The notes beneath the pieces are model-generated. The model saw only the letters and a list, made by a program, of their open reading frames with translations. It had not been told where the DNA came from and did not search any database. 64,000 nt of DNA from an uncultured Prevotella sp. (GTDB lineage: Bacteria; Bacteroidota; Bacteroidia; Bacteroidales; Bacteroidaceae): positions 627,927 through 691,926 of the forward strand of contig CAJODL010000001.1 of the NCBI GenBank assembly GCA_905233165.1, given 5' to 3'. Below, piece by piece: positions 168-43,026 of the stretch; position 1 is the first letter of the stretch; every line of letters starts with the position of its first letter. Made by a program: the position numbers and the translations under genes.

Positions 168-833
168 CTACCAAAATATAAATTGTCCAATAATTTCTTT
201 GCATACATACCAGAGTGCTGTAAATACATTTTTTGAACTCCAATAAGCAACGATTATTGTGCATATATTAAACAGAATGGCTGTCGCAATATAAGTATAC
301 GAAAAATATAGTGGACGTTTGTTAATATCAGTTTGGTAGTTGCCTATTTGATTTTTCCATGTATTTGCATGAAAGGCAATAGATATTCCTATTATTATGT
401 CTATACACCATAAAAATGTGGTAGAGCAGATAGAACGAAAAGCCAAAAGAATGTATGTGTAAATTGGAAAACAGTAAGGAGATAGGTCAACAAAAATCAG
501 TGTTTTATCATTACCGCTTGTTGTTATCAGACCACTATCGTTTTTAGCTTCGAAAGAGTGTATTCTTCTAAGAAATAAAATTGCGACCAAGGTATGTGTT
601 AACTCGTGTGTGAAGGTCTCAAACCATTGCAGATTACTTTTTATATATCTTTTAACAATAAAGAACAGGACTACTCCTATTGTTGTCCACTGATAGAGTT
701 GCAGATTACCAATCCATGTACCATACCTTGGGTGAATAATACTGTATATTACATCCCATATTGTGGCAAGGATAGCCAAGGAAAGTAATGTAAATAATAC
801 TGTTAATATGATGTATTTTGTTCTATATATCAT
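168..833 (-). CDS. M50B-like integral membrane zinc protease
   Basis: 221-aa protein with about six hydrophobic segments, the first at residues 9-29. The zinc-protease motif HELTH is at residues 76-80 at the edge of a hydrophobic stretch, and a second conserved-looking stretch (VDLSPYCFPIY) follows about 40 residues later. This layout fits the peptidase M50B-like family, site-2-protease relatives that cut within or near membranes; the exact Asp ligand cannot be assigned by eye. It is the last gene of an eight-gene minus-strand operon, one base after its neighbour, beside a cell-wall synthase fusion. A role in processing a membrane partner of that operon is inference. Confidence 0.65.
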   Translation of the reverse strand: MIYRTKYIILTVLFTLLSLAILATIWDVIYSIIHPRYGTWIGNLQLYQWTTIGVVLFFIVKRYIKSNLQWFETFTHELTHTLVAILFLRRIHSFEAKNDSGLITTSGNDKTLIFVDLSPYCFPIYTYILLAFRSICSTTFLWCIDIIIGISIAFHANTWKNQIGNYQTDINKRPLYFSYTYIATAILFNICTIIVAYWSSKNVFTALWYVCKEIIGQFIFW

Positions 834-834
834 G

Positions 835-1281
835 TTACTGATTATTATTCTTTCTCAGAATTTCTGCTACAATTAGTGCAGGACAATCCACATAATCACC
901 ATTTTTATTTAGGGTTATCATTGTAATTCCCTTCAAATATTTTACGGAGAAATCCTTTCTCTGTATAGTTTCAAGCAATCTCCTCGCTTGTGGCATTTTA
1001 TTGTTGTTTGCATGCAGAAGTATCATTGCGTTAGAATTGTATTCTATTTCGAAAAGACTGCTTCTTTTTTTTGTCTTCAGACCTTGACTCGTATAATGTT
1101 TTTTTAGATAGAAATTAAGAGTGTCCACATGAATAGGCACGAATAAAGCTTCTGTAGGCAGTATTTGCTCTTCCGTATTCTCTGCTGCCATTTCCTTTAA
1201 ACCACAATGATTTGATGCGTATATTCCAAGTATCACGATAATTATCATGCCTAAAATGAAATATATCAATTTGTCTTTCAT
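835..1281 (-). CDS. Small membrane-anchored protein, unknown
   Basis: 148 aa. Residues 6-24 form one hydrophobic helix, so the protein is probably anchored with its C-terminal 120 residues outside the cytoplasm. I recognise no family. The soluble part has alternating strands and a helix (PQARRLLETIQRKD) and only scattered cysteines. It sits one nucleotide from both the SEDS-PBP fusion upstream and the M50B-like gene downstream, so translational coupling is likely. Size and topology recall small accessory subunits of cell-wall synthases, but no sequence motif supports that. Confidence 0.6.
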   Translation of the reverse strand: MKDKLIYFILGMIIIVILGIYASNHCGLKEMAAENTEEQILPTEALFVPIHVDTLNFYLKKHYTSQGLKTKKRSSLFEIEYNSNAMILLHANNNKMPQARRLLETIQRKDFSVKYLKGITMITLNKNGDYVDCPALIVAEILRKNNNQ

Positions 1282-1282
1282 A

Positions 1283-4200
1283 TTATCTCATGTATTTTTT
1301 AAAACTGTTACTATTTACAATATTTTCAAGCACATTGTTAATCATATTCCAGTAAACTTTTTTTTCTAAGGTAAGTTGCTTAAATCTAAAATATACCACC
1401 ATAAATTTGTTATCATCTAATGATTTGATTTTATCAGAAGTAATGTCATGGTTACAAATGATAACTGCGAGCATTCTATCATCATGTGTCTTGTTCCCTA
1501 AGCTTAATGTGCCAGTTTTTGCATATAAATGATACCCCTTTAATGTATTTAACTCTTTTGCTGTTCCTTTTTGAATACAACTGAACATTCCTCTATATAG
1601 ATTATTTTGATAGAATTCCAAGTGTTTTTTTTGAGTATTTCCGTTTCTACCTAGCCATGGATCTTTGAACTTTGATTTTCTCGGCATTACACTAGCGTGA
1701 AAATCAGGGTGAAGAGAGTATAGCTTACCATACATCTCTGCCATCTTCATTGGAGTAACTTTAACAGGCGAAGCACCTAAAGTATATTGTCTTAGGCGCT
1801 CAGCAGGTGTTAGTTGAGAATCTTCCATCTCATAGTTGTATATTGTTGATGCTTGAGGAAAAGCCCAAGCGAATCTGCTTGAAACCTTAGCTTTGTTCTC
1901 TAAATTATTTTCCTTATAAAGATTAGTATTAATAAATTCATATCTCAAGGAATCAACCCACCCAATAAAAGTAGGCATATGGAAGTTCTTTGTGAGACCA
2001 TCAAACAAAATTTGTTCAGAGGTAGCAGTTGGGGCATTACGGAAAGTATATATCTGTCCATTCTGCTCTATTCTGAATCGTGGAAAATCATTGATATCTT
2101 TTGAAATAACAAATATCTCATCCTTTGCGTTCGCTAAACTTTCATAATGTCCCAAATATGTAATTAGTGCATTGTAATAATTACTTGATTGTGATAAGTA
2201 AAATTCGTTGTCAATCCATTGTCCATCTCCATTTTCATCGCTTGCTATAGATTTGAATGGTCTCTGGTCACTATAAGTGTATTTTGGACCAAATTTTTTT
2301 ATGTAATAATATTTGTCATCTGATTGTGCAACTTCTTTATTCTGAATTACCTTGGGACTCATAAGCTCTAGTCCTGCCCAATTTATGTCTTGACTCTGCG
2401 ATGTAACAGCAGCATACGTGATAGGCTTAAGAGAGGATCCAGGACCAGGTCTCATATAGCATAAGTTGAGATTGCCAAACAGATTTTCGTCTCTCATTGA
2501 GTTCGGATTCATGTAACTTTGTGTAGCTAATTCTTCAATTAGAGTTTCATCATTAGGATCTATAGAACCTGAAAGTTTGTTGTCAGCCATGAGTCTGACA
2601 TTTCCTAAACCGTCTATTGCTACAACAGAACATTCATGTCCTGTTTGTTTAAGTGTTTCTGATATATGTTGGGTAAGTTTGCTATCTAATGTAACAAAGA
2701 CCATGTCTCTGCTCCCTGTTCCTTGTTTGCTATATGCCACTAAATTAGAAAAATCTCTAAGCCATAGACATTTTTCTTTTAATGGATAAAAGAACCGACG
2801 CTTTCCATTAATAACAATATTCTTTACGAGTATGTCCTGTTCGTCTCGACCATATTGATAAGTAAGAGATTCTTTGCTTTTTGTATCCCTTAGCTCCAAG
2901 AAATTTTCTGGTGAAATCTGGAATACTGCAGTTGATGCAGTGTAGTCTTTCATCTCTCTATGAAGTATTACTTTGTAGTTTTCTCCAATATGACCATCTT
3001 TCATGCGGCTATCCACAATAGCCAAATCTACATTTTTAGGTAGCCATGACTGTGGTATAGAGTAAACAATAAGTCCAGGTAGTTTTGTAAGCATCAATGC
3101 ACTGCTATCATTTGTAGCAGATATTTCAGAATATATATTTCCTTTCCATGCTTTTTTATCAAATTCAGGGCTTTGTAAACTGAAATAAGCATTGTTAAGC
3201 GCTAATTCAAAAGTATTAAGATCTTGATGTCTTAGATGAATAATATTTCCATTTGAATTTTTGCGTTTTAAATTATTAGTAAAAGCCTGATATAGTGAGT
3301 AGGTGAAATCATTTATCAGCCCTTCTTCCTTTAATTTATTTACATGCTCACTTAGGTGAATTTTTTCTTCAATATCTTTTACCAGCGAACTTATGTCCTC
3401 TTCATTAACTAATTGATGACCTCGTGCTGGATACTGAGAAAGAAGACTATTTATCCCTGCTAATTCATCTTTACTTGTTGCCATTGCAGTAGAGATGTTA
3501 AACTCTTCCGCATTCATTTTGTCTCCTTGCACTTTGTTGTTAGCATAAAGCTCACCATAGTTATTCCCGCAGAAATAAACTATTAAAGCTATAACGATAA
3601 ATATCAAAAAGAAGGTCGTTTGTGGTCCGCGCTTTGTAAAAGATTTCAGACCTTCTTTTAATTCAGAGTTGTCTTCATCCTTTGGATGATAGCATGCAAA
3701 TACAACAAAAGCAGCAATCCACATTGCAAACATTATTAAGGTGAATCGCGCATTCTGACTGAGGAAGGGAAAATCCTGACCAAAGAAAACCGTTCTATTG
3801 GTTACAGCCATCCACTCGAAGGTGCTCTGTACCACAAATAGCAATGCTATTGCAAAAGTAAGAGTCCTTCCAGCAGGAGAATTATTCTCATTTTGGAATG
3901 TTCTCCATAATAGTACAAGTGAGAGTAATATCATTGTAATTGGTACAAGCCAAGACAATTCTCCTATCACGTATCTGGATAGTATCACATCACTAATCTG
4001 GGTGTTCCATGTAACACCCTTCTTGAAGTGTGGCAGTAAAGACATAATACCATCATCAGTGACACGCTTCTCTCCTTTATTGATATGATATTGTAGGAAC
4101 CACTGATTCTGAGCTGCATTTAACAACCTTTGGGAATTGCTGTGATTATAACTCTCATTCTGCATTATCCTACCTACAGTCTGTGTATGAATAATAGCAC

Positions 4201-6499
4201 GATACTTAAAATGAAGATTGTTAGTTTGGAAATAGTCATATCCTATTGTTGCTGTACTAACGACAAATGTTAGCCATACAAAGATAGCTATAGCTCCTTT
4301 CCACTTAAAATCATATCTTTTCCATAGCCATGTAACCAATAATAAGATAAAACCCATAATTAAAGGCAAAAGGATAAAGAACAGTCTTGAGGTGCTGATG
4401 AACCCGAGGAAAGAATCTTCTTGATTATAGGCTGTCCATACACAGTATGGAAGGAATATAACCATAACAATTACTAAGAATACAAGAACTGTGAAAAGGG
4501 GAAATCCTGCAGCTTTTCCTGCAGTGTGGTCATAATATCTGTATTTCAAAAATGAATATAGGATTATCGAATAATATATGCATTCAAAAATGAAAAACAT
4601 TATAGCATAGCCAGGATCCCCTATGAATAATGCAGCCAAAGTGAATAGCGCATTAGCAATTCTGTAACCAACGGGTAATCCTCGAGCTATAATGTATTCA
4701 TTAAGAATGAAGAATGATACAGGTACCAATATATTTAATCCTACAATGCTTATATGGGCAAATTTTGTTATCAATACAATAGCTATCGGTAAAAATAAAA
4801 ATATACTATAGACAATCTTTTTCCATAATTTTCTTAGTTCAAAGTTTGGTAAGTATTTTATGCAAATCCAGAGTGATAGTGCAGTAACAGGCATTAGTAT
4901 CCATAAACCTATGGTTATTAATATTGGATTCTCCAATAAATTAGGAAGTTTCATTGTATATCTTAAGAACTCATTGAGTGTTATGTCCGTTACTGGTGGG
5001 AAGACTGCAATTCTCCACAATAGGTATATTCGAATAACAAAAAAAGGAATGGCAAATAGGCTTGCTATCATCACAACCTTTGATGTATGTCCTTTTGTAA
5101 ATATCATTGAATATAAGAAGGTAAGGAATAGAATACCAAAGACAAGAAAAAGTATTGTGATATCCTTTACCCATATATTATCCTCTCCAGTTATAGGGCT
5201 TGATTGTCTGAGATTGCATACGTTGAAATGCCATACTGCTCCGTTTTTGGCTGTCAATGTGTTTAATAGTTGGATAGTATTGATACTATTATCATTGAGT
5301 ATAGCCTTAAAAGGAGTTTGGCTGTCATCTATCATGTAATTAATATTGCCATTAAAATTATACTCATTATTCTCATTTTCAAACAATGGGTAGTAAAAGG
5401 CCTCATTTACATTTGTCTTGAGAAGTGAGGCTGTCTTTGATGTGACCGCAATGACTTTCTGCCTATTCTCTGCCTCCGCATCATCTGCCAGTCCTGGAAA
5501 ATTATTTATGTATGGGAACTGATATCTTAAACGAATGCAACCATCACTATAGACAGCCTTTAAAGGACGAGTGGCTTGGCTCCCTATACCAATGTAGTAA
5601 TAAGTGTCTTTATCCAATTCTTCTGTCTCTAACGCATTAGAGGCAATGAATTCCTTACCATCGCAGAAAAGCTTGACATCTTTCAAACTTTGTGGATATG
5701 TCATATAAAAGACATCTTGCTCTTTGTCCTCATGATTCCTGACTAAGAATACTTCATGTAATGTATTTAAAAGTTCTTCTTCTCCAGTTTCTTCATAAGA
5801 TGTACTGCTATGTAGAATGTCATATAAATTATATCCTATTTGAATAGGTAGTTTGAATGATGGTTCATATTTTTTCTGAGTGTTGTTCGATAGATGATTG
5901 AATGATACTACAACCTTTGTAGAATCCTTTTTGTCTTCTTTGATTGTTCTAATAGAGATGTTGCAAATTATAGAATCATTCTGAAGTGTTATTTTATCAT
6001 GAAAAGAAGGCAATTGTCCTTTGTTAATCAGTCTTCCTGTTCTACTATCATCTACTTTCGCAAATATTGGTTCGCTGAGGATGTTATAGTGGAGTATGCA
6101 GTTCTGGCTATCACTGTTTTTAGGAGTTATTGACGCAAACCCCTCGTAATTCTTTTTATCAAAGAAAGATTGAGTTTTGTTTTTTCCTACCAGTAAGACA
6201 GAATCCTTTTTGTCCACCCCTTGCATTACCAACACATGATAGTCAGCATTACTATATACAGAAATATTAGGATGCAGGTAGTTGAGTGTTATTAATACCG
6301 ATGCTACTGCTGTTATAGTCCAAGGAATAATTAATTTAGCCTTGTCTTTTATAAATGAACACCATAGAAGTGTAAGCGTACATATTACAAAATATGCGGA
6401 AAAGGTAAAGGAGAAAATAATGTTTGCTATAACTCCAATGATTATGCTTATAATACAGAGGAGACCAATACCAATAAAACCCTTCGTTTTTTGTTCCAT
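1283..6499 (-). CDS. SEDS glycosyltransferase - penicillin-binding transpeptidase fusion
   Basis: 1738 aa. Two or three N-terminal helices and an extracytoplasmic domain (about 75-440) lead into a polytopic core (about 445-960) with SEDS (FtsW/RodA) hallmarks: SDVILSRYVIGEL around residues 836-848, with the expected acidic residue near 847, and GQDFPFLSQNARFTL around 905-920, matching the PFxSxGG loop. After a linker and one more helix comes a transpeptidase with all three motifs in order: SSLK (Ser1355), SSN (1438-1440) and KTG (1661-1663). SEDS proteins polymerise lipid II and class B PBPs cross-link the product, so one chain appears to hold both activities. The whole ORF is open and sits inside an operon with an actin-like ATPase. 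Which housekeeping pair it descends from cannot be told by eye. Confidence 0.85.
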   Translation of the reverse strand: MEQKTKGFIGIGLLCIISIIIGVIANIIFSFTFSAYFVICTLTLLWCSFIKDKAKLIIPWTITAVASVLITLNYLHPNISVYSNADYHVLVMQGVDKKDSVLLVGKNKTQSFFDKKNYEGFASITPKNSDSQNCILHYNILSEPIFAKVDDSRTGRLINKGQLPSFHDKITLQNDSIICNISIRTIKEDKKDSTKVVVSFNHLSNNTQKKYEPSFKLPIQIGYNLYDILHSSTSYEETGEEELLNTLHEVFLVRNHEDKEQDVFYMTYPQSLKDVKLFCDGKEFIASNALETEELDKDTYYYIGIGSQATRPLKAVYSDGCIRLRYQFPYINNFPGLADDAEAENRQKVIAVTSKTASLLKTNVNEAFYYPLFENENNEYNFNGNINYMIDDSQTPFKAILNDNSINTIQLLNTLTAKNGAVWHFNVCNLRQSSPITGEDNIWVKDITILFLVFGILFLTFLYSMIFTKGHTSKVVMIASLFAIPFFVIRIYLLWRIAVFPPVTDITLNEFLRYTMKLPNLLENPILITIGLWILMPVTALSLWICIKYLPNFELRKLWKKIVYSIFLFLPIAIVLITKFAHISIVGLNILVPVSFFILNEYIIARGLPVGYRIANALFTLAALFIGDPGYAIMFFIFECIYYSIILYSFLKYRYYDHTAGKAAGFPLFTVLVFLVIVMVIFLPYCVWTAYNQEDSFLGFISTSRLFFILLPLIMGFILLLVTWLWKRYDFKWKGAIAIFVWLTFVVSTATIGYDYFQTNNLHFKYRAIIHTQTVGRIMQNESYNHSNSQRLLNAAQNQWFLQYHINKGEKRVTDDGIMSLLPHFKKGVTWNTQISDVILSRYVIGELSWLVPITMILLSLVLLWRTFQNENNSPAGRTLTFAIALLFVVQSTFEWMAVTNRTVFFGQDFPFLSQNARFTLIMFAMWIAAFVVFACYHPKDEDNSELKEGLKSFTKRGPQTTFFLIFIVIALIVYFCGNNYGELYANNKVQGDKMNAEEFNISTAMATSKDELAGINSLLSQYPARGHQLVNEEDISSLVKDIEEKIHLSEHVNKLKEEGLINDFTYSLYQAFTNNLKRKNSNGNIIHLRHQDLNTFELALNNAYFSLQSPEFDKKAWKGNIYSEISATNDSSALMLTKLPGLIVYSIPQSWLPKNVDLAIVDSRMKDGHIGENYKVILHREMKDYTASTAVFQISPENFLELRDTKSKESLTYQYGRDEQDILVKNIVINGKRRFFYPLKEKCLWLRDFSNLVAYSKQGTGSRDMVFVTLDSKLTQHISETLKQTGHECSVVAIDGLGNVRLMADNKLSGSIDPNDETLIEELATQSYMNPNSMRDENLFGNLNLCYMRPGPGSSLKPITYAAVTSQSQDINWAGLELMSPKVIQNKEVAQSDDKYYYIKKFGPKYTYSDQRPFKSIASDENGDGQWIDNEFYLSQSSNYYNALITYLGHYESLANAKDEIFVISKDINDFPRFRIEQNGQIYTFRNAPTATSEQILFDGLTKNFHMPTFIGWVDSLRYEFINTNLYKENNLENKAKVSSRFAWAFPQASTIYNYEMEDSQLTPAERLRQYTLGASPVKVTPMKMAEMYGKLYSLHPDFHASVMPRKSKFKDPWLGRNGNTQKKHLEFYQNNLYRGMFSCIQKGTAKELNTLKGYHLYAKTGTLSLGNKTHDDRMLAVIICNHDITSDKIKSLDDNKFMVVYFRFKQLTLEKKVYWNMINNVLENIVNSNSFKKYMR

Positions 6500-6504
6500 G
6501 TAGA

Positions 6505-7230
6505 TTAAAATTTAAGTTTATATCCAAATGCTGCAGTCTCAGTTTTTACACCTTGTTCCTCTAACCATTCATATACAGTAATAACACTTACAGGCACTGT
6601 AGTCGGATCTTTATAAAACTCTTCCAGTTTCATATCATTCAGTGAAAGATTATCCAATATCATTCTCAGCCCTTCAGTGTTATGGCTTACCTTGTTAAGG
6701 TCAGAATTACTTTCTTTCAAGAAATTTACAGTTTGAGAAGCAATCTCCCAAAGTAGGAGACTGATTTGACTCTTCACTTCTGGAGTCATAGGGCGTTTTA
6801 TGTGGTTGAATAATTCGTCCCATTGGCCACTATAACGATGGTACATTGCTTGACTCCATTTCTTTTCCATGCATTCCTCCGTTTCAGCAACAGAATCCTT
6901 CTTCTTTATGTTTTCTTCTGTTGCTTTGGTTTCTTTTGGCATTGTTTCTTGAGACTCTTCTTTCTCTGCTTTCTGTTGCTTGTCTTCGTCTGTTTCAGAA
7001 TAGGAAACTTCTGCACAATCAGTATCCACTGAAGAATCCTCATTTATAATAGTACAGTTCCTGTATTCCACGGCCATACATGTCAATGTTAGTAGGGGTA
7101 TCCCTAGAATGACACATAACAACATTTGCCAGTAGTCGGCAAAGATTATTGGACTAATAAAAGGCAATACTATGGTTGTTAGTATTGTTATTGCTTCTAT
7201 TGCAATCAATATATAATAAATCTTTTTCAT
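6505..7230 (-). CDS. Two-helix membrane protein with acidic linker, unknown
   Basis: 241 aa. Two N-terminal hydrophobic helices (about 4-26 and 33-53) are followed by a long charged Glu/Lys/Thr-rich linker (about 65-120) and a compact C-terminal helical domain (about 125-241) with the motif MYHRYSGQWDELFNHIKRP. No known family is recognised. It lies 5 nt before the SEDS-PBP fusion and 14 nt after the actin-like ATPase, so by position it could connect the cytoplasmic ATPase to the membrane synthase; that is inference. Confidence 0.65.
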   Translation of the reverse strand: MKKIYYILIAIEAITILTTIVLPFISPIIFADYWQMLLCVILGIPLLTLTCMAVEYRNCTIINEDSSVDTDCAEVSYSETDEDKQQKAEKEESQETMPKETKATEENIKKKDSVAETEECMEKKWSQAMYHRYSGQWDELFNHIKRPMTPEVKSQISLLLWEIASQTVNFLKESNSDLNKVSHNTEGLRMILDNLSLNDMKLEEFYKDPTTVPVSVITVYEWLEEQGVKTETAAFGYKLKF

Positions 7231-7244
7231 CGTTCTCTATGTGC

Positions 7245-9524
7245 TCAAGTTGTTTTTATTTCTGGGATGTCACAATTTTTGTCCAATACTCTGTAAGGGT
7301 AGGGGAAGAGACTTTCGTATAGCATATCGTTGTTTCGCTGTTCTACACAAGGTGTTAACAGAATGCTACTATTATCATCTTTTGCATAGAAATCTTTTCC
7401 ATCGTAAAATAGTGTGTATTTGCGTTTGTCAAATGTTTGTCTGTTTTCTCCCTCATATTCGTCATCAGAGATATAGAAATGAGTGTTTTCATTACAATTG
7501 TCTATTACCAGTTCACCACGCATAATTTTTACTATGTCATTATTTCCTGCATCAAGATTAACTTCTTTATCTTCATTCTTTGTCTGTACTGTACTTTCTA
7601 AAATATCAAAATGCATCAAATTACGAATTTTTGATACACACATGTCGAGGTGGTCTTTCCATGTTTTTTTGTAATTATCTGCAATAACTATTTCCGTATT
7701 ATCATTTGTCTCTGATAAAATCCTATCAAACTTTTTCTCCATTCTTGACTTTTCGCTGCTTCTCTTGGTAACATCAACAGCAATAGGAATTCCTATCATG
7801 TCAGATTGCTTGCTTATCTGAATAGATTTCAGCGGACCTATCAGGCAACCTTTTTTCAGTTGTTCATTATTAAGAACTACAATTCTGCCTTCCATGTGAT
7901 ATATCTTCTCTAAAATATTTATTGTGGCAGTTTGGAAAGGTTTATATTTAAAGGCTCTTCCGCTAAGTATTATATTTTCAAACCTGTTCTCTTTGACGTT
8001 AGTTACAATTTTCTTTATTATCTTGTTGATAGTCGATTGGATAATGTTAAGATTATCGCCAATATCTCCACGTTTCGCAATGTAGTCAATAATGGTGGTT
8101 ACATTCATTCCCTCCTCAATCTTTAGGTTGCTATTACTGTCGTTTATGATAGGGTTCTCCTTCTTCTTGTAATTTTCAATGATATTCTCTAATCTGTATA
8201 AATCAGCTTCCTCGGCTTCAGAAAGAACTTTTTTTATAATATTTTTTGCCTTCATTAGACCTCCCATTGTGACGATATAATTCACGAATATGGCATAAGT
8301 CAAAGCATTTCCCGCCCCAACAAATCCCGAGCGGTATATACTAACAGCATTACTGCCATTTTCTACTTTGATGATAGAAAAGTCCGTCGTACCCTTACCT
8401 ACGTCAATGACAAGATAATTACCTCGTCTCACATTCGTGTTTCCATTACAAAACCATGAAACAAACGAAGCATCGCTTTCAGAATAGGAGTGTATGTCAA
8501 AGATAACCTCTTTCATCTTCTCTGGCAACAGTTGTCTGAATTCTTCAGAATCTGCTTTCTGTCGCACATCATTGATGAAGTCGGAAAGTTGTCCCTGTTC
8601 CATTACGTTAGGCACGAGAAGGTACAAACGGATTCCACATTTCACTCCGTCACGATTTTTCTCACATACTTCCATTACTATCTCATGGAGGAATCTCATA
8701 ACGATGCCTTGATGCAGGTCGTTGAGATCTATCTCTTCAGGACATTCACCTGAAAGGTATGATATTTTAATGTTTGGCAGACGTTGGCCTTTGTTGCTGT
8801 CGTCCCTTTTGGTAATAAAATCCAGCAGAGGATCTTTCTCACCAGGTTTGGCAATGACATTTTTGTCTCTATTTTGATTGTTGGTTAACTCTTTCGGTAG
8901 GAAATATACACTCCTGAAAAGTTCTTCGTCTGCATCTTCTTGTTGGTCGAATGTACGAGGTTTTATTTCATCTGATTCTAAACCATAAAAATGCTTGGCA
9001 CAATTTTTGAACAACTCACTATATCGAAACTGGTCCTCTCTGTTTATCAGCATCTGACTCGCTTCTGAACCGACATCCAACACTACCTCATAGATATTTT
9101 CTTGCGGAATACAGTCTATTATAAACTTTCCCTTGTATTCCACACCCTGTTCTTCATAATGGAAAACTATAGTGTATGTTTCTGCGCTTTCGCTTCCTTG
9201 ATTGTATATCTCCCAGTTGTTACCATCTTTTACAAAACGGAAATTACTTCCAATATACTCCTCTTCATCTTTATTTTTATTTGTAAGAGTAATATCAAGC
9301 TGATAACCCTCCTCAGAAACAGAATCGATATAAACTTTTCTATCGTGTTTTCTACTTGTGTAGGAAACCAGTTTCAGGTTCTCAACCTCGAGTTTTAGTA
9401 ATTCTACTCCTGATCGTGTATTGGCAAACAGTTGTTTCTCGTCATTTATCTCTTGCTCGACATTGTCATATAGTTTTAGGTTATATGCTCGCTCGCCACT
9501 TTTAAAATAGAGATGGTAAATCAT
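7245..9524 (-). CDS. Actin/Hsp70-fold ATPase with N-terminal beta domain
   Basis: 759 aa, soluble. Residues 1-140 look like a beta-sandwich. The ATPase core then shows the three nucleotide-contact motifs of the actin/Hsp70/sugar-kinase superfamily in order: phosphate-1 VVLDVGSEASQM (about 147-158), phosphate-2 LVIDVGKGTTDF (about 370-380) and an adenosine-type motif IILSGRAF (about 516). ParM, MreB, FtsA, DnaK and SrfB-like proteins share this layout; I cannot place it closer. Its operon neighbour is a SEDS-PBP fusion, so a scaffold or regulator role like that of MreB for RodA-PBP2 is an attractive inference. It is 14 nt from the next gene and 17 nt from the previous one. Confidence 0.8.
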   Translation of the reverse strand: MIYHLYFKSGERAYNLKLYDNVEQEINDEKQLFANTRSGVELLKLEVENLKLVSYTSRKHDRKVYIDSVSEEGYQLDITLTNKNKDEEEYIGSNFRFVKDGNNWEIYNQGSESAETYTIVFHYEEQGVEYKGKFIIDCIPQENIYEVVLDVGSEASQMLINREDQFRYSELFKNCAKHFYGLESDEIKPRTFDQQEDADEELFRSVYFLPKELTNNQNRDKNVIAKPGEKDPLLDFITKRDDSNKGQRLPNIKISYLSGECPEEIDLNDLHQGIVMRFLHEIVMEVCEKNRDGVKCGIRLYLLVPNVMEQGQLSDFINDVRQKADSEEFRQLLPEKMKEVIFDIHSYSESDASFVSWFCNGNTNVRRGNYLVIDVGKGTTDFSIIKVENGSNAVSIYRSGFVGAGNALTYAIFVNYIVTMGGLMKAKNIIKKVLSEAEEADLYRLENIIENYKKKENPIINDSNSNLKIEEGMNVTTIIDYIAKRGDIGDNLNIIQSTINKIIKKIVTNVKENRFENIILSGRAFKYKPFQTATINILEKIYHMEGRIVVLNNEQLKKGCLIGPLKSIQISKQSDMIGIPIAVDVTKRSSEKSRMEKKFDRILSETNDNTEIVIADNYKKTWKDHLDMCVSKIRNLMHFDILESTVQTKNEDKEVNLDAGNNDIVKIMRGELVIDNCNENTHFYISDDEYEGENRQTFDKRKYTLFYDGKDFYAKDDNSSILLTPCVEQRNNDMLYESLFPYPYRVLDKNCDIPEIKTT

Positions 9525-9541
9525 AATTTTATATCGTTTTA

Positions 9542-10606
9542 TTAGTTTCGTATTGTTATTTTTGTCAATTTAGGATAGTTCTTGTTTGTTGGGTTGAGAT
9601 TGCTTCCCAAGGTTTTCAGCTCCGTCACCTTAAACCCTCTTCTTATGTATTCTCTAAGTTCAGATGATCTGTAATATGAAACCTGTTGTGGAATGCCGTC
9701 CACCATAAATGTAGTATTCCCGAATGGTGAAGGACTGTTGGTTATAAGCATCTCTTTAATTTTCGGGTCCTGTGTTGCTAATAGTTCTGTGATAAAGTCA
9801 TAATAACTTACATTTATTGCTTGAACTTCAGAGGTTGTTTTATCAGACTCTCCCCTTAGATATATTGTGCAATTATCCTTGAGGAAAAGAGTATCATTCT
9901 TGCTTATTATGTTTGCCTGAAGCTTCCAGTTGATGTCATCTGTGTTTTTTACTTTTTTCTGATAATCAATATAGTATTCTATTGCCTCAAATTTTGTGTC
10001 TCCAAAATAAACAGTACATGTTTTAGAATCATAAATAGCATTGACTTTGTATTTTGAACTTGTCTTTTGAGTTATGTTATCTATTATGGAATTCTCGTTT
10101 GTATTACCGATCAATCTTGGGAGAAGAGTTATGATTATTCCCAGTACTATACCGGCAACCAATCCTGCACCACTTATATACAACCATTTTCTGTCAATAG
10201 GCTTCTTCGTAGAATAGGGTTTCGCTATTGTTTCTGATTGTTTCCACTTAATGATTGTATCTGGACTTGCTATTCCGTTTAAAAAGATGATTCTTCCTGT
10301 CTTTACATCTGCAACATACAAACTCTTGAGCAGAATGTTGCATAAATCTGATGCAGGACCTGCACCTATGTTATTTGTGATATATTCGCCTATCTCTTTA
10401 TAGATGTCAGCATTATTCCTGTCAGCGTAATTCAGTATTAAGAGTTCGTCCAGAAGATGAGTGTGGATAAATTCTTTGAAGAAACTATATACCTTAGAAG
10501 ATTCCTCATCCTCATGATTAATCAAAAACAGAATCAGCCTTTTCCCGTCATCCTTGTAAATGACGTTTTCTTTTGGAACCAATATCTCGTATTTCATATT
10601 TCCCAT
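9542..10606 (-). CDS. Single-pass membrane protein, unknown
   Basis: 354 aa. A cytoplasmic-looking N-terminal domain (about 1-145, thioredoxin-like in its alternation of strands and helices but without CxxC) is followed by one strong hydrophobic helix (about 147-168) and a C-terminal extracytoplasmic domain of about 185 residues. That domain ends in LREYIRRGFKVTELKTLG, which may help bind a partner. No family recognised. Start could be residue 1 or the Met at residue 4. Its topology would let it carry a signal from the actin-like ATPase encoded next to the two exported proteins encoded upstream. Confidence 0.65.
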   Translation of the reverse strand: MGNMKYEILVPKENVIYKDDGKRLILFLINHEDEESSKVYSFFKEFIHTHLLDELLILNYADRNNADIYKEIGEYITNNIGAGPASDLCNILLKSLYVADVKTGRIIFLNGIASPDTIIKWKQSETIAKPYSTKKPIDRKWLYISGAGLVAGIVLGIIITLLPRLIGNTNENSIIDNITQKTSSKYKVNAIYDSKTCTVYFGDTKFEAIEYYIDYQKKVKNTDDINWKLQANIISKNDTLFLKDNCTIYLRGESDKTTSEVQAINVSYYDFITELLATQDPKIKEMLITNSPSPFGNTTFMVDGIPQQVSYYRSSELREYIRRGFKVTELKTLGSNLNPTNKNYPKLTKITIRN

Positions 10607-10620
10607 AGGTTAAGGTGTTG

Positions 10621-11289
10621 TTAAAGGGGTACAATCCGATAAACATCCCCTAATAGAATCATTGCCTTGTTGCCCATGTCTTTAGGCTGTTTTATCATGT
10701 ACACTTTGTAGTCTTTACGGTCCTTTTCTTTTATCGTGTTCTTTTGCTCTACAGAGCCTGCAAATTCTACGCTTTGATATTCCTGCATCAGGCTGACCGT
10801 TGATTCGTAAATCTCACTCCCATCAGAAAGATTCCCTTTCTTTTTCCAATTCTTGGGATCAGCCAGTTTACCATTGATGTAGCCCTCTACTATTCCGATT
10901 TTATAGGATCTATATTTAATCCCATTTAGAGATTGCGTTTTTAGAGATGCCAGATATGTCGGCATTCTCGAATTTCTATATTTGTAGCTGCCGGAGGTCT
11001 TGTCATACCAACTGGTCTTCATCTTTCTGTTGGCAAAATCAAGGAATAGAGGAGGAATGTCGTTTTCAATGATTTCCTGCTTCTGGCAGGCAGCCCTCAA
11101 CAAATCCTTGTTTGCCCTTGATGGAGGCGTGTTGCCAACCTTGGTGATAAATCTACATAACTGCATCAGTTTATGATAAAGCTCATTTTGCACAGGCATC
11201 AGTTCGTTTCTCGTCAATCTTGCGTCTTGGGCATTGGTTTGACAAGTAAAGGCTATTAGTAATATGATGATAATGATTCCTTTCTTCAT
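10621..11289 (-). CDS. Exported protein, unknown
   Basis: 222 aa with a clear signal peptide (KKGIIIIILLIAFTCQTNAQ, cut after about residue 21). The mature part is mostly helical at first (two cysteines near 42 and 67 could pair) and then beta-rich. No family recognised. It is the second gene of the operon, 15 nt after the first exported protein, and is likely periplasmic. Confidence 0.7.
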   Translation of the reverse strand: MKKGIIIIILLIAFTCQTNAQDARLTRNELMPVQNELYHKLMQLCRFITKVGNTPPSRANKDLLRAACQKQEIIENDIPPLFLDFANRKMKTSWYDKTSGSYKYRNSRMPTYLASLKTQSLNGIKYRSYKIGIVEGYINGKLADPKNWKKKGNLSDGSEIYESTVSLMQEYQSVEFAGSVEQKNTIKEKDRKDYKVYMIKQPKDMGNKAMILLGDVYRIVPL

Positions 11290-11304
11290 ATTCGTCCACT
11301 ATCT

Positions 11305-12141
11305 TTATCGTTTCCGTTTTCCCTCTTGGTAAATATAGTGTCTCAAAACTTCCCCGGAACCTTGCTGCGTAATTTTTATCAAGAAGCATCTTGCATCCTT
11401 TTCTTTGTTGGGAGGGATATATCCACTAAAAACATCAAAATAGTCAACATTAATATTTATATTGTCTGGAGTAGAGTATGTATAATATGCCCGTTCGCTT
11501 TTTATAAGACGATTTTCCTCTCCAAAATATCCTTGTTTTGTATTTATAACACTATGCAGCTCAAATTCCCATGCTCCACCTTGGCTGGATAAATGGCTGA
11601 CATTTTTGTTAATATAGAATTCATATTCATTTGTGGTAATCTGATCCTCTGGTATGAGATACATTCGAAAATCAATACTCCTGATTGATAAGCTATTATA
11701 ATCTTTTCCTCTCCATATAACAGTCATTTCTATAGGGGTGTCCTTTATGCGTTGTTGCAGGTCATCCTCAATGTTTCTTTGCAACATACCCTTAACCTTA
11801 TATACACTGGTTCCGTAATAGTTTTCGATGCTTGTAACTTTAAATACATGAGTGATGCTATGATCCTTCAATATATACTGTTTATACCAATTCAGAAAAC
11901 TGGTCATCTTGATTTCATCCGAATTAAGATAAAATGTGTTGATATCCTTTTGGTATGCTGCTGCGATATCTTCCGGACTTAATTTTTCTATAGGATTATT
12001 CATTTCAGAAATCTTATAGAAAAATTCCCTTACAGCACGCTCTATATCTGCATTCACATTGTATCTGCTTTGGGCAGACAATGCTGTAGGGGGGAATGCA
12101 AGGCATAATAGCAATATGGTAATCCGAATGCTTGGTTTCAT
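11305..12141 (-). CDS. Exported protein, first gene of the SEDS-PBP operon
   Basis: 278 aa with a signal peptide ending near ALSAQ (residue 24). The mature protein begins with a helical segment holding two possible NTF2-like helices, then alternating strands such as STLxVxxIDFRMYL. This could be an NTF2-like or other ligand-binding fold, but I do not recognise it. It opens the eight-gene operon and lies about 50 nt downstream of a good Bacteroidetes promoter that is nearly identical to the promoter of the Liv/kinase operon. Confidence 0.7.
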   Translation of the reverse strand: MKPSIRITILLLCLAFPPTALSAQSRYNVNADIERAVREFFYKISEMNNPIEKLSPEDIAAAYQKDINTFYLNSDEIKMTSFLNWYKQYILKDHSITHVFKVTSIENYYGTSVYKVKGMLQRNIEDDLQQRIKDTPIEMTVIWRGKDYNSLSIRSIDFRMYLIPEDQITTNEYEFYINKNVSHLSSQGGAWEFELHSVINTKQGYFGEENRLIKSERAYYTYSTPDNININVDYFDVFSGYIPPNKEKDARCFLIKITQQGSGEVLRHYIYQEGKRKR

Positions 12142-12198: not shown

Positions 12199-12228
12199 CA
12201 AATGTATTTATTTTTTCTCAAATACAAA
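12199..12228 (-). promoter_or_regulatory. Promoter of the SEDS-PBP operon
   Basis: On the minus strand TTTG (12225-12228), 18 nt, then TACATTTG (12199-12206) match the Bacteroidetes -33/-7 pair. The surrounding 67 bp (12191-12257) are nearly the same as 28471-28536 before livH. Confidence 0.75.
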
Positions 12229-12310: not shown

Positions 12311-12372
12311 ATCCTTTCACTACTGTCTAATATGACCGATTAATCAACCCTTATTGGACAGTAGTGAAGGAT
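12311..12372. repeat. Long inverted repeat between operon promoter and ATPase gene
   Basis: Arms of 21-22 bp (12311-12332 and 12352-12372) are complementary except for one extra T and one wobble, around a loop of about 19 bases. It lies 8 bp downstream of the stop codon of the minus-strand ATPase gene, so it may act as a terminator or mRNA stabiliser, although no T-run follows. It could also be the relic of a small inverted-repeat element. Confidence 0.6.
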
Positions 12373-16356: not shown

Positions 16357-18858
16357 TTATTGCATCTTTAAAGTTTTGATATAGCTCTCAATGTGAGCAA
16401 CCATATTTTGATATTCTTCTGTTGAGACTTTGTCTACATAATTAGCAACATTGTTTTGAGCATCAAACTGTCCCTTAAAATAGTTATATTCTTCCCACAT
16501 TTCAGGCCACTGACGTATAGTACCAAAAGCTGTTAAATGAACTAATTGTGTTAAATGCTCTAACATTCCTCCCAAATTTACATTCTTACTAATAAAATCC
16601 GTGACAAGTACAGAGCCTTTTGTGTTAAAAATACTATCATCTTCAGGAATGTCAACATCCGCTAACATCTTTCGATAGTGATATTGGAGGCTCAATACCT
16701 CTTGATATTTTTTATTAGCATTTTTCCTTACAGCTCCCTTTACAGGATTGAAAATAGACTCAACTATCTTATATATTTCCTTTGGAGAAAGTTTTAGTAT
16801 ACCTGAGTGCTCCAACCGGTTTTCCATCAGTTTTATAAGGTTATATAGAAATAGTTGTGGAGTATTAGTCGGACATGCTCCGATAGCTATTTGCCAATAA
16901 TCTTCTATTTGGTTCAATCCTTCTGCAAGCAGACGCTCATAAATAGCCGATGAATATGCCGAAATAAATAGGAAGAAGAATTTTCCGTTAGGTCCCATAC
17001 CTAATTTATATTTATCATCTCCAACCTTTGTATGCTTACTTATATCTTCTAATAGTTGATATCCGTAATGATTTCCAGTAGGATCTGTTAAAAGGTAGTC
17101 AAGTAAGATGATATCATATTTTTTTAATCGTAAGGCTTCCTCTGCTTCCTTTTCAGTTTCTGCATATTCTATTATAAATGGGCTATGCTCTATTGCATGC
17201 ATTTGAAATTCTGATTTGTTTAATAATTGATTTTCAAAATCTTTTTTCTTTTCATCATTCCATTTTTGGGGAAAAATAATCTTTATTCCCCTATATACTG
17301 TGTTTAGTTTAAAATCAATTGAACTTATTTCCTCTTCAATTAATTTAATTTCTTTGTTTGCAACTACACCTGTGTAGATAAGTTTGTAGATAAGTTTTTC
17401 TACGTTACTATTTGAATTATTCGTTTTCGTTAACTCTTGCAGTTCCAATGAAAAATTTTTAATATTTGTGTCGCTTTTGTTACGTCCATTAACCTCAGAA
17501 ATTTTCTCTTGCAGGCGTGTTTGTATATGTTTTATCTCTGATTCTTGTACACCCTCATATAATTGTATGTTTAGAAGAAAACATTTCTTTTCTTCACATA
17601 CCTCTATATCCGTTGTACCTAAATCAGCTTCATTAATCCATGAATGTTTTTTTCTTGTTATATTGCCCCATATTGTGGCGACAAAAGCTTTTAATAGTTT
17701 ATTCAGTTTTAGTGGTTTAGAAAGATCGATAATTTTATCTTTAATTTCTGAAGCCTTATCTATTGAAAAACATTTAATATTTACTCTGTCTGAAAGTTCT
17801 GATGTCTTTTCGAATGACATCGGTAAATATGAAACATTTTCGGTAGTAATATCAACGTCGTTTGCAGTGGAGTTAATTAAAGAACGAATTTCTGTAAGTT
17901 TTTGTTCGTTTATAGGACTTTTAAATTCAAGATATAAATCATCACCCTTGACTATATTCATCTGATTAAAGTGTCTATCAGGGATGATGCTTCCTGTGTT
18001 TGAGTTTTCATTAAGTTTAAATTGTTTTTGTAGAAGATTTTTTATAATGGTTAGTTTACAATTCCACTGATGAGGGGCGTTTTCTTTTAAGTCATTAGCC
18101 ATAGCTTGTACAGCCTTATCGTCAACCAACAAAATACGCCATTTCTTACTCTTTATTCGTTCAATTATAGGAGTCTCAGTTAAATATTCTTGTTCTATCA
18201 ACTGTCGTATAACACTTTCTGAATGGAAAATGAAGGGTGAAACAGCCACAGCATGGGAACCCGCTAAATACGCTTGAGACGCAAGTCGAGCATTTAAGTC
18301 TGCGTATTCTTTAGCAACAGAAAGATTATATAGATGCTTTTGATAATTTCTATATATACTTTCTACTGCCTCATAAAAAACCTTTTCTATTTTTTCTTTA
18401 TCACTATATAGCGGAACGAGGTAGTTCCAGATGCTATTATCCATTATTTGAAATGAACGGGGAACAGAATTTGGCAAACTTTCACCATCATACATACTCT
18501 TAACAAAAAAATCTGTTAACACTAAATGTAAGATAGGTATATAGACTTTATTTTTATCATCAGTCTTTTTTAGGACAAAATCTGTTTGAGCAAAACTATT
18601 TACGTTGCCACTAGATGCATATCCTGTCAATATATCTTTTGGCGTGTGAAGAATCAATCGTATAAGGTTACCTTTTTCTTCATCTAATTTTTTATCCTCA
18701 TTCCATAGCGGAGTTTTACTATCTTTATTTAAATAACGAAAAAGAAAATCAAAAAAGAAAATTTTCTCATTATTAGAGTTCACGACATTATAAGAAAAAG
18801 TTTTGTTTTCGTCATTATCTCTTTTTATAATCAGTTTTGCTTCTAAATAATTACTCAT
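16357..18858 (-). CDS. Receiver-like signalling protein with a split receiver fold
   Basis: 833 aa, soluble. KKWRILLVDDKAV (Asp246, Asp247) looks like the first strand and acidic pair of a response-regulator receiver, but the next receiver elements appear only about 340 residues later: AETEKEAEEALRLKKYDIILLDYLL with a candidate phosphoacceptor Asp587, then FFLFISAYS as strand 4. No clear KP pair of strand 5 is seen. Before and after are helical regions of unknown fold; no DNA-binding domain is visible. It lies in the same operon as a histidine-kinase-like protein, 11 nt after the 389-aa gene, which fits a non-transcriptional signal acceptor. The split-fold reading is by eye. Confidence 0.65.
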   Translation of the reverse strand: MSNYLEAKLIIKRDNDENKTFSYNVVNSNNEKIFFFDFLFRYLNKDSKTPLWNEDKKLDEEKGNLIRLILHTPKDILTGYASSGNVNSFAQTDFVLKKTDDKNKVYIPILHLVLTDFFVKSMYDGESLPNSVPRSFQIMDNSIWNYLVPLYSDKEKIEKVFYEAVESIYRNYQKHLYNLSVAKEYADLNARLASQAYLAGSHAVAVSPFIFHSESVIRQLIEQEYLTETPIIERIKSKKWRILLVDDKAVQAMANDLKENAPHQWNCKLTIIKNLLQKQFKLNENSNTGSIIPDRHFNQMNIVKGDDLYLEFKSPINEQKLTEIRSLINSTANDVDITTENVSYLPMSFEKTSELSDRVNIKCFSIDKASEIKDKIIDLSKPLKLNKLLKAFVATIWGNITRKKHSWINEADLGTTDIEVCEEKKCFLLNIQLYEGVQESEIKHIQTRLQEKISEVNGRNKSDTNIKNFSLELQELTKTNNSNSNVEKLIYKLIYTGVVANKEIKLIEEEISSIDFKLNTVYRGIKIIFPQKWNDEKKKDFENQLLNKSEFQMHAIEHSPFIIEYAETEKEAEEALRLKKYDIILLDYLLTDPTGNHYGYQLLEDISKHTKVGDDKYKLGMGPNGKFFFLFISAYSSAIYERLLAEGLNQIEDYWQIAIGACPTNTPQLFLYNLIKLMENRLEHSGILKLSPKEIYKIVESIFNPVKGAVRKNANKKYQEVLSLQYHYRKMLADVDIPEDDSIFNTKGSVLVTDFISKNVNLGGMLEHLTQLVHLTAFGTIRQWPEMWEEYNYFKGQFDAQNNVANYVDKVSTEEYQNMVAHIESYIKTLKMQ

Positions 18859-18869
18859 GATAAAGTGAT

Positions 18870-20039
18870 TTAATTATTCGTTTCTCCAAGTTCAATATTT
18901 TTTATTTCATCATTAAGAATAGAAATTAATCTTAAATACTCTATATCTTGTTTACCTTCTTGAAGAGATTTTTCATCAAGGTTGGAAATGATGTTTGTTA
19001 TGTTTTTGAACTTGTCATCAGATAATATTTTAACTTTTATTTCACTTAGGTTTCCTTTAATAGCCAGTTCATATAAATCAAAGAGTAGTCCACGAGTTGT
19101 TAATTTGGATTCTACATAATCAAGGAGATCTTTAGATGTTTGTCCGGCATCTTTAAGAATTTCACCAAATTCACCTGTATGTTGAAATAGGGCAATGGTT
19201 CTTACTGTTGTTTGGCTATCTAACCTTGGATAATCCAATACTCCAGAAATCTCGTTGCATTTAATGTCTTTATCATGAAGGATTAGATAAAGCTTCTCCG
19301 CATCTTCATTTAATGTTAGAAATTGTGTGGATAAAGCATCTATCCAAGCGTTATCTAACCATTTTTTATTTTCTTCATCTTTTACTGGAGAACCTTCCTC
19401 AATTGGCCAAACGGCATATACGACCACGTCGTCACTGAAATCATTCAAACGATAATACGAAAACCTGTGATAAATCCATGGAGCAGGTGGAGTTTCTCTA
19501 TCTTTAGTCAAATAAACATTAAATTTTTCTTGTTGTCCCTCATTCTTTAAGTTATCAGCTATCCATTGTGAACCTTTTGTTCGCATGAAATCTATTTTGA
19601 TTGACTCTTCATCACATTTCTTATATTTATCAAACAAATCCATATACAATTGAGAATCCTCTAACTTGTTTAAATCCATTAGAATCTTAAGTGTCTTAAT
19701 CCATTTATATTCATTATCTTTGTTTATTTTTTTTGAAGTTAGATCTTTGTCTATTATTTCTTTGTATTTTGAGACAAATGCTTCCAATTCTTTGTATGCA
19801 TCATTTATTATAGGTCGTATTTTTCCCTCTATTTCGTCCTTACCTTCATTCTTAATGTATGAAGGAAGTTCTTTTAAAACATCTTTCGCATTGATATTAT
19901 CTTTAATATCATTCCAAAAATAGTCACATAACTTCTTATCACTCATAGGAAATGGTGTTGAAGACTTTGGGTTAAACAGAACATCGTCCCTAAATGGACT
20001 ATTAAAGTAAGTTGAAAAGACGATAACTTTTTTACTCAT
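18870..20039 (-). CDS. Soluble protein of the Liv/kinase operon, unknown
   Basis: 389 aa, no signal peptide or membrane helix. It begins with a hydrophobic strand (KKVIVFSTYF), continues with a Lys/Glu-rich helical stretch (about 50-150), a mixed domain with DDVVVYAVWPIEEG near 240, and a helical C-terminus. I recognise no family. It overlaps the stop of the kinase-like gene by 8 nt and precedes the receiver-like gene by 11 nt, so it probably works in the same complex or relay. Confidence 0.65.
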   Translation of the reverse strand: MSKKVIVFSTYFNSPFRDDVLFNPKSSTPFPMSDKKLCDYFWNDIKDNINAKDVLKELPSYIKNEGKDEIEGKIRPIINDAYKELEAFVSKYKEIIDKDLTSKKINKDNEYKWIKTLKILMDLNKLEDSQLYMDLFDKYKKCDEESIKIDFMRTKGSQWIADNLKNEGQQEKFNVYLTKDRETPPAPWIYHRFSYYRLNDFSDDVVVYAVWPIEEGSPVKDEENKKWLDNAWIDALSTQFLTLNEDAEKLYLILHDKDIKCNEISGVLDYPRLDSQTTVRTIALFQHTGEFGEILKDAGQTSKDLLDYVESKLTTRGLLFDLYELAIKGNLSEIKVKILSDDKFKNITNIISNLDEKSLQEGKQDIEYLRLISILNDEIKNIELGETNN

Positions 20040-23000
20040 ATCTGGCAGAATTTAATAATTCAACTAATGAATATTTGCAATCAAGTACAGCGTGTTCTAT
20101 TGCAGAATAAGGAATAAATGGCAGTTGCTGAGGCATGTCTGATTCACTTGGTTTTGATCTTCCGGAATGTATTGTCATACCTGGTAAGAAATAGTGGGTT
20201 TTAACACGTATGTCATTACCTTCATAGGCGATTATGTTATCCGCATTAGCAAATTTTGAGTAAAAATCTCTAGTCAAATTTTCTTTTGCTTGTTGATCTC
20301 CTTTTATATTAAATGCACCGTATAATTTGTCTAAAAGGCCTTGGTGAATAGAAAGATTGTCAAAGCTGGATAATACATGAGCATCATCAAGAGAGACTGG
20401 TGTGACTTCAAGACTTTGCGCTTCTTTATTCCAACTGAATTTTGCATATTTTTTGCATTGCGAGAAAGTAGATGTCGCTAAATCAAGACTAAAGCCATAA
20501 AGATTGAAAGAATCAGTATTCTCACAACTACGGATAATTGAGAAAATGTATAAATTTTTACTGGCATAAGTTGCTCCTAAATGAGTTCGAGCCTCAACCA
20601 AATCAACATCCCTGTCTTGACGTGGATTTATCTTAAGGGCTTGTAATATAGGATCCAACATTTCATAACTATCACACTGATTAATAGTAGAATATTGGGG
20701 GAAATTTGCAATTAGTTTTTCTTTGTCTGATTTTATATCGTTGCCATATCCCTCTATCTTATGGATAGTAAAATCTGTTTCTTCAACTCCAAAAGCCTTA
20801 GAAAAAATACGTTCATCAAAAATTCCAATTTTCTGCTTTATAGCGAACAATTGTTTATAGAACCAAAGTTCTGTAAGTGGTTCATTTCTTATAAGTCTAT
20901 CTGTAGAATTGTTACCTGTTATACCTTCGCTAAATATAAACTTGTTTCTATCTGTAGCATTATTGATCACGTGCTCTTCAAATTCTTTTTTGTCCTCAAG
21001 ATGAGTTACGTAGCGGTATTTAGCCTTTTCTTCAGATTTCTCAAATGTAATCTTGTCTACAATATCAGTTTTATCAGCATCCTTGTATCCTTCATAGGCT
21101 TTTTCATCATATATATATATCATCTCAGCCTTGTCCCATTTCGATAATTTTCGATATAACAATGTGATAGTTCCTTTTAGCAGTCCACCCAAAGTATCAT
21201 TGTAACATGTAGATTCTTGCAGTAATAACTGTTTTATTTTTGCAAAATTGCTTTCTTCTAACTCAGATAACTTAAAGAAACGAGTTGATGAGAAATGCCT
21301 TACCATTTTGTATTCCTCCTCATTCGCCTCTTGACATAAGTTATCATCATAAACAACAAACTCAAAACTCTTATTGTTGTATGCAATAAAACTGCTTGGA
21401 CTAAAGACTTTCCACGATTCTTTCTGAATAATGTTGTTGATTCGTTCTTCATTATTCTCAAAATCTGAAGAAACAAAAGCGACTTTCTGAGGACGTACTA
21501 AGCAAAAAACATATTGCAGATGACATTCTCCGTCTTTGCCCTTTGATCTTCTTGCATAAAGAACAGGAGGGTACGATTTCCAACACTCACCATTCTGTAG
21601 CCAAGTTTTATCACCTTTATCATAATTATTCAGATTAACAGGTGAATAACTTGGATTATCATCAATAGATCTAAGCCAAGCAGACGATATTCTCATTTCT
21701 TTGATGCCTTTATTAGCATTCTTCATTTTGCCACTTTCATCATCAATATAGTCTTCTATTATAGCTTTTCTCAAAGAATACAATGATTCTTTAGTAAATG
21801 AAAGATTATCTGTAAGTGTTACAAAATAAAGTTCATTATCAGCTTTATTACTGCTTCCACAATAATAACGCTTCAACACTTCTTTAAGAGATAAAGACCC
21901 CTCATCAGGACTATCATCTATAAAGCGTTCTTTTAAATCTGCATCAGGATTTTCATTTAAAACATCTTCCTTTGAAAAAATATCAATGGTTAACTCCAAT
22001 TTTCCCTTGTCGCGCCAATTGCCATGTTTTGCTGCGTTTCTAATAACATTTTCAAAAATAGAGAAGATTGCCTGACGTCCAACTATACCACCAGGTAAAC
22101 TGACATCATAGTTCCTCATCTCGTTTAATTCCTCTTTAGCTTTCTGTACCAAAGTTTTGTCGTGATAATAATCAGTCGGTATCACACCCGGCGTAGAAGG
22201 ACTAGCTGATATTTTTTCAACAGGATCTCCAGTAAATGTTGTTCTGAATTTAAGAACTATATCGCATAATGTCGTTCCATTATCTACACTTGTGGGGCAG
22301 GTTGTACGTCCTAAGCCTTCTGATCTGGCTATATTCCCTAAAAGGATATTGTCTGGTTTTAAATTTTGCCTGTCAGGATGGCGTTCGTATCTTTTGTCGT
22401 TATTAAGTTCGTCATAAATAAAATCCTTAAAATTGACTGTCGAGTAATAAGGAATATAGTCTGTTGCAATTGTAGCAATAAAATCTTGCCGTTCTTGTAG
22501 ATATGATATGAATTGCCCGAGACCCACTAGGAACGGTAGGGCTATTTTATCAACATCCTTTTGTCGTAAATTTATACCTGTATCGGAGTTTTCTTGTATC
22601 TTCAATTGAGAATTTGCCATTTGTAACAAGCTTGTTAGATCTTGTTCGCTTTCAAACAATTGAGACAGAATCTTGTCATTTAACATATCTTTTACAGAAC
22701 CAAGATGATGCTTTAGGTATGACATGACATGACTACCTAAATTATGGCTCATATTACGGGACATAATAGCGGCCTTGGCCGATTTTACAGCTTCTTTTTT
22801 CTGCCTAATATCAGAATCGTCAGTCCGACGCGATTTCAGTAGCATGACAAATTCTATGATTTCAGCCCGATTTTCTTCTATGAATTTTTTTAATCCGTCT
22901 TCGTAGTCACTTATTGCAAGAATATTAGTAAGATAACTTCCATCACTATTAGTGGATACGTCTGGGTCTTCGCCGCATACCCATACATATACCCAACCCG

Positions 23001-23499: not shown

Positions 23500-23501
23500 A
23501 A

Positions 23502-24566: not shown

Positions 24567-24567
24567 T

Positions 24568-26703: not shown

Positions 26704-26704
26704 A

Positions 26705-27577: not shown

Positions 27578-27583
27578 CGGCAG

Positions 27584-29665: not shown

Positions 29666-29667
29666 AT

Positions 29668-42955: not shown

Positions 42956-43018
42956 ACTTATATATTTATACGACGTTTTGGTTAGCTTAGTTTTAGTGTT
43001 TATTACACATTTCGGGTA

Positions 43019-43026
43019 CAAAGATA
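43019..43026 (-). promoter_or_regulatory. -7 box of the helicase-nuclease gene
   Basis: Minus-strand TATCTTTG followed by TACCC. It places the start of transcription downstream of the longest ORF start and supports the ATG at 42955, about 64 nt away. Confidence 0.65.

Follow-up and report, generated by a model that had tools for sequence, protein, structure and literature searches.

In the usual view, SEDS-PBP pairs build wall as part of either of two machines, which depend on an actin-family ATPase, MreB in one and FtsA in the other. Here we analyzed a 64,000-nt stretch of contig CAJODL010000001.1 from an uncultured Prevotella sp. (the window; its own genome is referred to as G000), which contains an operon encoding a SEDS-transpeptidase fusion (FUS) and an actin/Hsp70-superfamily ATPase (ACT). 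The fusion resembles FtsW-FtsI and RodA-PBP2 in having a SEDS polymerase, then a transmembrane (TM) segment, then a transpeptidase, with the catalytic Asp, the SxxK/SxN/KTG motifs and an accompanying actin-fold ATPase. It differs from both in being a single chain of 1700-2100 aa, in its extra N-terminal TM segments and ~350-residue periplasmic beta domain, and in joining what appears from sequence to be an FtsW-like polymerase to a weakly PBP2-like transpeptidase. Its ATPase, judged by model scores, is neither MreB nor FtsA.

Natural single-ORF SEDS-PBP fusions exist, for example in Rhodococcus sp. RHA1, and these likewise combine polymerase and transpeptidase (PMC10449877). From what is mentioned of them, the present locus is set apart by a conserved operon that also encodes a dedicated ATPase and a small partner in the periplasm. 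E. faecalis has two SEDS proteins in addition to its canonical ones, FtsW2 and RodA2, which are active, induced by wall stress and by CroS/R, and pair as separate proteins with distinct bPBPs; the abstract describes no ATPase of their own, unlike the situation here (PMC12724132). The PBP2SAL elongasome of Salmonella is comparable as a second wall-building complex for particular conditions, but it uses the host MreBCD scaffold, whereas a separate ATPase is encoded here (PMC10492807). Ter (TerD/TerB/TerY) systems are reminiscent of four relatives of the locus, which have TerD and a CW_7 TM protein by the core, although TerD is absent from G000. The initial annotation knew of no described system with this gene content. 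SEDS-PBP fusions and additional SEDS proteins have both been reported from nature before, but no description of a fusion in obligate pairing with a dedicated ATPase was found in open-licence papers.

Operon organization

Eight consecutive ORFs on the (-) strand run from 12141 to 168, separated by 15, 14, 17, 14, 5, 1 and 1 nt, and the nearest upstream gene is 239 nt from the operon. The features are as follows.

12199..12228, (-): candidate Bacteroidetes-type promoter TTTG-N18-TACATTTG, inferred by eye, ~50 nt ahead of p278
11305..12141, (-): p278, the operon's first gene; exported protein of no known family whose N-terminus resembles a signal peptide; optional
10621..11289, (-): p222, exported protein with a signal-peptide-like N-terminus, no known family; optional
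9542..10606, (-): p354, bitopic protein of ~140 residues, one TM (144-162) and ~190 residues; optional
7245..9524, (-): ACT, actin/Hsp70-superfamily ATPase of 759 aa; residues 1-140 form an additional N-terminal beta domain; core
6505..7230, (-): p241, N-terminal membrane anchor and acidic cytoplasmic tail, probably coiled-coil
1283..6499, (-): FUS, 1738-aa SEDS-transpeptidase fusion; core
835..1281, (-): p148, small bitopic protein, TM 5-23 and periplasmic domain, directly behind the fusion; core
168..833, (-): membrane protein resembling Peptidase_M50B, with HExxH near residue 76; optional

L022, a relative from a different genome, has all eight genes in unchanged order, and 7/8 are conserved in G038, where the M50B gene has relocated elsewhere in the island. 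The operon is therefore not a chance adjacency, and both its extent and the 1-17 nt spacing reported at annotation were borne out. The further assignments made then also held. TM segments are predicted in all three proteins described as membrane-anchored (p148, p241 and p354), and the N-termini of the two described as exported, p278 and p222, were judged by eye to be signal-peptide-like. The M50B-like protein passes the Pfam cut-off (E 1.8e-8) and HExxH is kept in 5/5 homologues; the first half only of the profile is matched, which makes a third metal ligand and proteolysis putative. Its topology makes p354 a candidate for an adaptor that joins cytoplasm and periplasm. In the 64-kb window, scans for Rfam families and tRNA genes gave no matches.

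The fusion protein

FUS is divided as follows, in residues.

N-terminus: TM segments
~85-440: periplasmic beta domain
~500-940: SEDS polymerase
960-978: further TM
~1250-1700: transpeptidase

Pfam sees the transpeptidase part at threshold (21.2 bits vs 22.1; 22.9 in a second search), and PF01098 gives no match to the SEDS part. Residues 836-961 match chromosomal FtsW proteins (phmmer, E 2e-5 to 9e-4), and hhalign yields E 4e-6 against an FtsW profile vs 0.16 against RodA. Utilizing a profile of the SEDS half against a small reference set, we recovered 7/8 FtsW proteins, six at E < 1e-4 with a best value of 2e-10, and RodA remained unmatched at E up to 10. A RodA-like assignment was consequently rejected, and by these sequence comparisons the SEDS half is FtsW-like. 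With the transpeptidase half, four PBP2 proteins (E 2e-4 to 6e-3) ranked above FtsI, a weak signal from a small reference set that makes this half weakly PBP2-like.

The SEDS catalytic Asp, D262 in E. coli RodA, belongs to the large periplasmic loop that precedes TM8 (PMC10449877). In FUS, D837 aligns to the FtsW SDF motif and is kept in 13/13 homologues, as are the transpeptidase motifs S1355xxK, S1438SN and K1661TG, in order. The 13 homologues diverge down to 28-29% identity, and retention of these residues across that range argues for selection on both activities. Together with the significant relation to FtsW, the motifs confirm the SEDS-PBP fusion that had been annotated. More than ten TMs are predicted in the SEDS region, for which the structure model is of low confidence; the AlphaFold model of residues 1-1000 is confident only for the N-terminal periplasmic domain, and its SEDS part is poor. 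Foldseek with this model returned nothing, and the periplasmic domain had no relatives. Searching PDB sequences with the fusion, A3 and A4 brought no useful result. Pfam does not reach the diverged SEDS half and its model is poor, so this half may have lost lipid II polymerase activity or may act on another substrate.

The ATPase

ACT carries the motifs D150xGSE, S348ESDAS, D374xGKGTTD and G522RxF, and PHOSPHATE-1, PHOSPHATE-2 and ADENOSINE motifs occur in order in 13/13 genomes. The TTD form of PHOSPHATE-2 is also present in FtsA. Sequence libraries gave nothing significant for ACT. Its AlphaFold2 model (pLDDT 74) matches DnaK and ParM in Foldseek with E ~1e-7 to 1e-6 and probability 1.0 (DnaK E 1.2e-7), and the TM-score by target length is 0.61 for ParM vs ~0.53 for DnaK. 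On its motifs and predicted structure ACT is an actin/Hsp70-fold ATPase, in agreement with the initial annotation. The MreB model has four matches in G000, zero at the ACT locus, and ACT reaches only E 0.15 against PF21522; nor does it pass the FtsA model (PF14450, E 0.13, 13.1 bits vs 31.8). As far as model scores tell, then, ACT is neither MreB nor FtsA. Pfam HSP70 is likewise unmatched, and an Hsp70 substrate-binding domain is not recognizable. The invariant SESDAS motif and the N-terminal beta domain distinguish the family.

A conserved core with exchangeable accessories

To define the unit, we compared 13 genomes, comprising 11 fusion genomes, G458 and the window's own genome. FUS, ACT and p148 co-occur in 13/13, spanning several families of Bacteroidia. 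ACT and the fusion are both present or both missing in ~440 surveyed genomes, lying on different contigs in G836 and G838. For 78 pairs, the distances of ACT and those of the fusion show a correlation of r = 0.99, computed without a housekeeping baseline. An alignment of the 13 places p148 behind the fusion in every case; it is highly diverged in the most distant members and was identified there by position. By sequence, p278, p222 and p354 adjoin the core in 3/13. The M50B gene is found in 5/13 genomes, where it is always linked to the fusion and is the sole M50B. Other relatives have, in the place of p354, another bitopic protein, p372, which contains WG repeats. G038, G832, G077, G835 and G837 have homologues of p241 next to ACT or the fusion.

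Given these counts, the conserved unit is ACT, FUS and p148, with exchangeable accessories. The eight genes do not form one indivisible unit, since p278, p222 and p354 are absent beside the fusion in 10/13 and M50B is missing in 8/13. Whether the fusion occurs without the other seven genes, a question raised at annotation, has a divided answer: it never occurs without ACT or p148 (13/13), but often without p278, p222, p354 or M50B.

Distribution and acquisition

The fusion was found in 4/151 genomes of the family, in G000 and G226 among 295 genomes of the order, and in G000 and G458 among 396 genomes of the phylum. Across 84,980 species genomes it occurs at no fewer than 10 loci, which is a lower bound because two short patterns only served as the query. 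Within the family and order samples ACT is confined to the genomes of the fusion, apart from a weak Hsp70-type match in G088, which was rejected as a case of ACT without the fusion because it is an ordinary Hsp70-type protein. Nine genomes of the same genus in the sample are without ACT and without a full-length fusion, and their weak matches to the fusion query are only ORFs of FtsW size. No relatives were found in plasmids with the fusion query, or in phages and viral contigs with the ATPase query.

Canonical MreB is present in 13/13 genomes and FtsW and RodA in the 4/4 checked, and G000 itself retains MreB, FtsW, RodA and other PBPs. The gene set is therefore accessory, as the initial annotation proposed. 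GC content is 0.35 in the operon against 0.43-0.45 in its flanks. Between G000 and G038, which belong to two genera, the fusion is 62% identical and FtsW 45%, while between more distant genomes the fusion evolves faster than FtsW. Low GC, patchy distribution and the 62% vs 45% identity together indicate horizontal acquisition of the gene set.

Possible function

We give slightly better than an even chance to the locus encoding an auxiliary peptidoglycan synthase that was acquired horizontally, has an ATPase regulator of its own and is used beside the host elongasome and divisome. The FtsW-type SEDS half of FUS would polymerize Lipid II and the transpeptidase half would cross-link the strand; as both are in one chain, polymerase and cross-linker would be inseparable. 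Cytoplasmic ACT may switch or scaffold the synthase, comparable to FtsA for FtsW-FtsI and MreB for RodA-PBP2. The signal could pass the membrane via bitopic partners, p354 and p241 here and the WG-repeat p372 elsewhere, with the small periplasmic p148 also relaying it, and the M50B protease and exported proteins might tune the synthase locally. The synthase is probably turned on under envelope stress. In favor of this reading are the catalytic residues of both enzymes and of the ATPase retained in 13/13 homologues, the all-or-none pairing of ACT with the fusion and their correlated distances, the relation to FtsW, the host's retained wall machinery, the low GC and the between-genera identity of the fusion, and the TerD and CW_7 neighbors in four relatives. 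FtsW2/RodA2 of E. faecalis and the PBP2SAL elongasome are precedents for additional synthases that serve under stress or in particular conditions.

Four other explanations were considered. The operon had been said to look like an accessory elongasome, in which the ATPase would form MreB-like filaments steering the fusion round the side wall. This agrees with the predicted actin-superfamily fold of the ATPase, for which ParM is one of the closest structural matches, and with a transpeptidase half that weakly favors PBP2 over FtsI. However, the SEDS half matches FtsW and zero RodA at E up to 10, ACT is beyond reach of the MreB model, and no MreC/MreD/RodZ-like gene was found by Pfam among the neighbors, in agreement with the first remark that the classical partners are absent. 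We consider an elongasome very unlikely, and the name is not supported for the FUS/ACT set. An alternative division machine resembling FtsA-FtsW-FtsI, building septal or polar wall under special conditions, would agree with the FtsW-like SEDS half and with the TTD motif that ACT has in common with FtsA. In its favor, too, four relatives have near the core ter genes, which in Yersinia pestis and E. coli influence filamentation (PMC4633105). The transpeptidase half is not FtsI-like, though, ACT does not pass the FtsA model, and an FtsQLB/FtsN/FtsZ-like partner was not recognized, making such a machine unlikely.

ACT could instead be an Hsp70-like chaperone that folds or inserts the giant fusion and has no part of its own in wall synthesis. 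Obligate pairing would suit a dedicated chaperone, and the top Foldseek matches are DnaK nucleotide-binding domains; yet ACT shows neither an Hsp70 substrate-binding domain nor a Pfam HSP70 match, ParM scores higher by target length, and the bitopic partners adjoining ACT suggest a membrane role. We find a chaperone quite unlikely. Least probable is a role in defense or conflict, in which the set would change or mend the wall upon attack by phage or a rival: the island does hold the defense-like p1488 (Hhe/PDC-S37) and p439 (NsnB/AriA), and caspase-like, trypsin-like and PP2C genes are near the core in G077, but the core is without such neighbors in L024, L025, L027, L029, G226 and G458, and the phage, plasmid and viral collections contain no match.

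Against an auxiliary synthase, we counted the divergence and poor model of the SEDS half, the missing Ter association in G000 and the separate contigs of ACT and the fusion in G836 and G838. A bolder and rather doubtful form of the same idea is a third, self-contained and transferable peptidoglycan-building machine next to elongasome and divisome, whose one-chain polymerase and cross-linker is driven by its own filament-forming or switch-like actin-family ATPase. A mobile set of synthase and ATPase would be a minimal natural model for the control that a cytoplasmic actin-fold protein exerts through the membrane on a polymerase, and it might shield cells when the normal wall machines are blocked.

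Genomic neighborhood

In G077, G116, G835 and G837 the core adjoins TerD genes and the gene of a TM protein that contains the CW_7 wall-binding repeat, and some TerD-linked relatives also carry Ca-type P-ATPase, TerB-like or VWA genes. A TerB-like gene, just under the Pfam cut-off, adjoins M50B in G038, whereas TerD was found nowhere in G000. The Ter and CW_7 neighbors suggest use under envelope stress.

Several further features were observed around the operon. A perfect 12-bp inverted repeat, TTCACTACTGTC / GACAGTAGTGAA, lies at 12316-12368 of the window, between the operon and an AAA ATPase gene. Within 16357-28453, a kinase-like and a receiver-like protein are encoded together with a methyltransferase and a complete ABC transporter of the branched-chain amino-acid type, and much of this set recurs in G038 (L021). 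The protein at 16357-18858 has two receiver-like stretches, and that at 20032-23499 is a divergent histidine-kinase-like protein with an H-box-like RNMSHNLGSHV; both were recognized by eye, with nothing from Pfam. An AAA_15/OLD-like ATPase (p439, matching NsnB/AriA-type defense models) and a partner protein are encoded at 28610-30987, and a 1488-aa helicase-like protein (p1488) at 38555-43021 (PADLOC: PDC-S37 1134 bits, Hhe 512 bits). The caspase-like, PP2C and trypsin-like genes in the core's region of G077 are at L020 8367-9278 and 17239-17934 and at L018 3673-4797. Between 32110 and 38547, the window encodes two AAA+ proteins of CbbX-like type along with one protein carrying a WYL domain and one with Sel1 repeats, and relatives of these genes are near the operon in G038 and L022.
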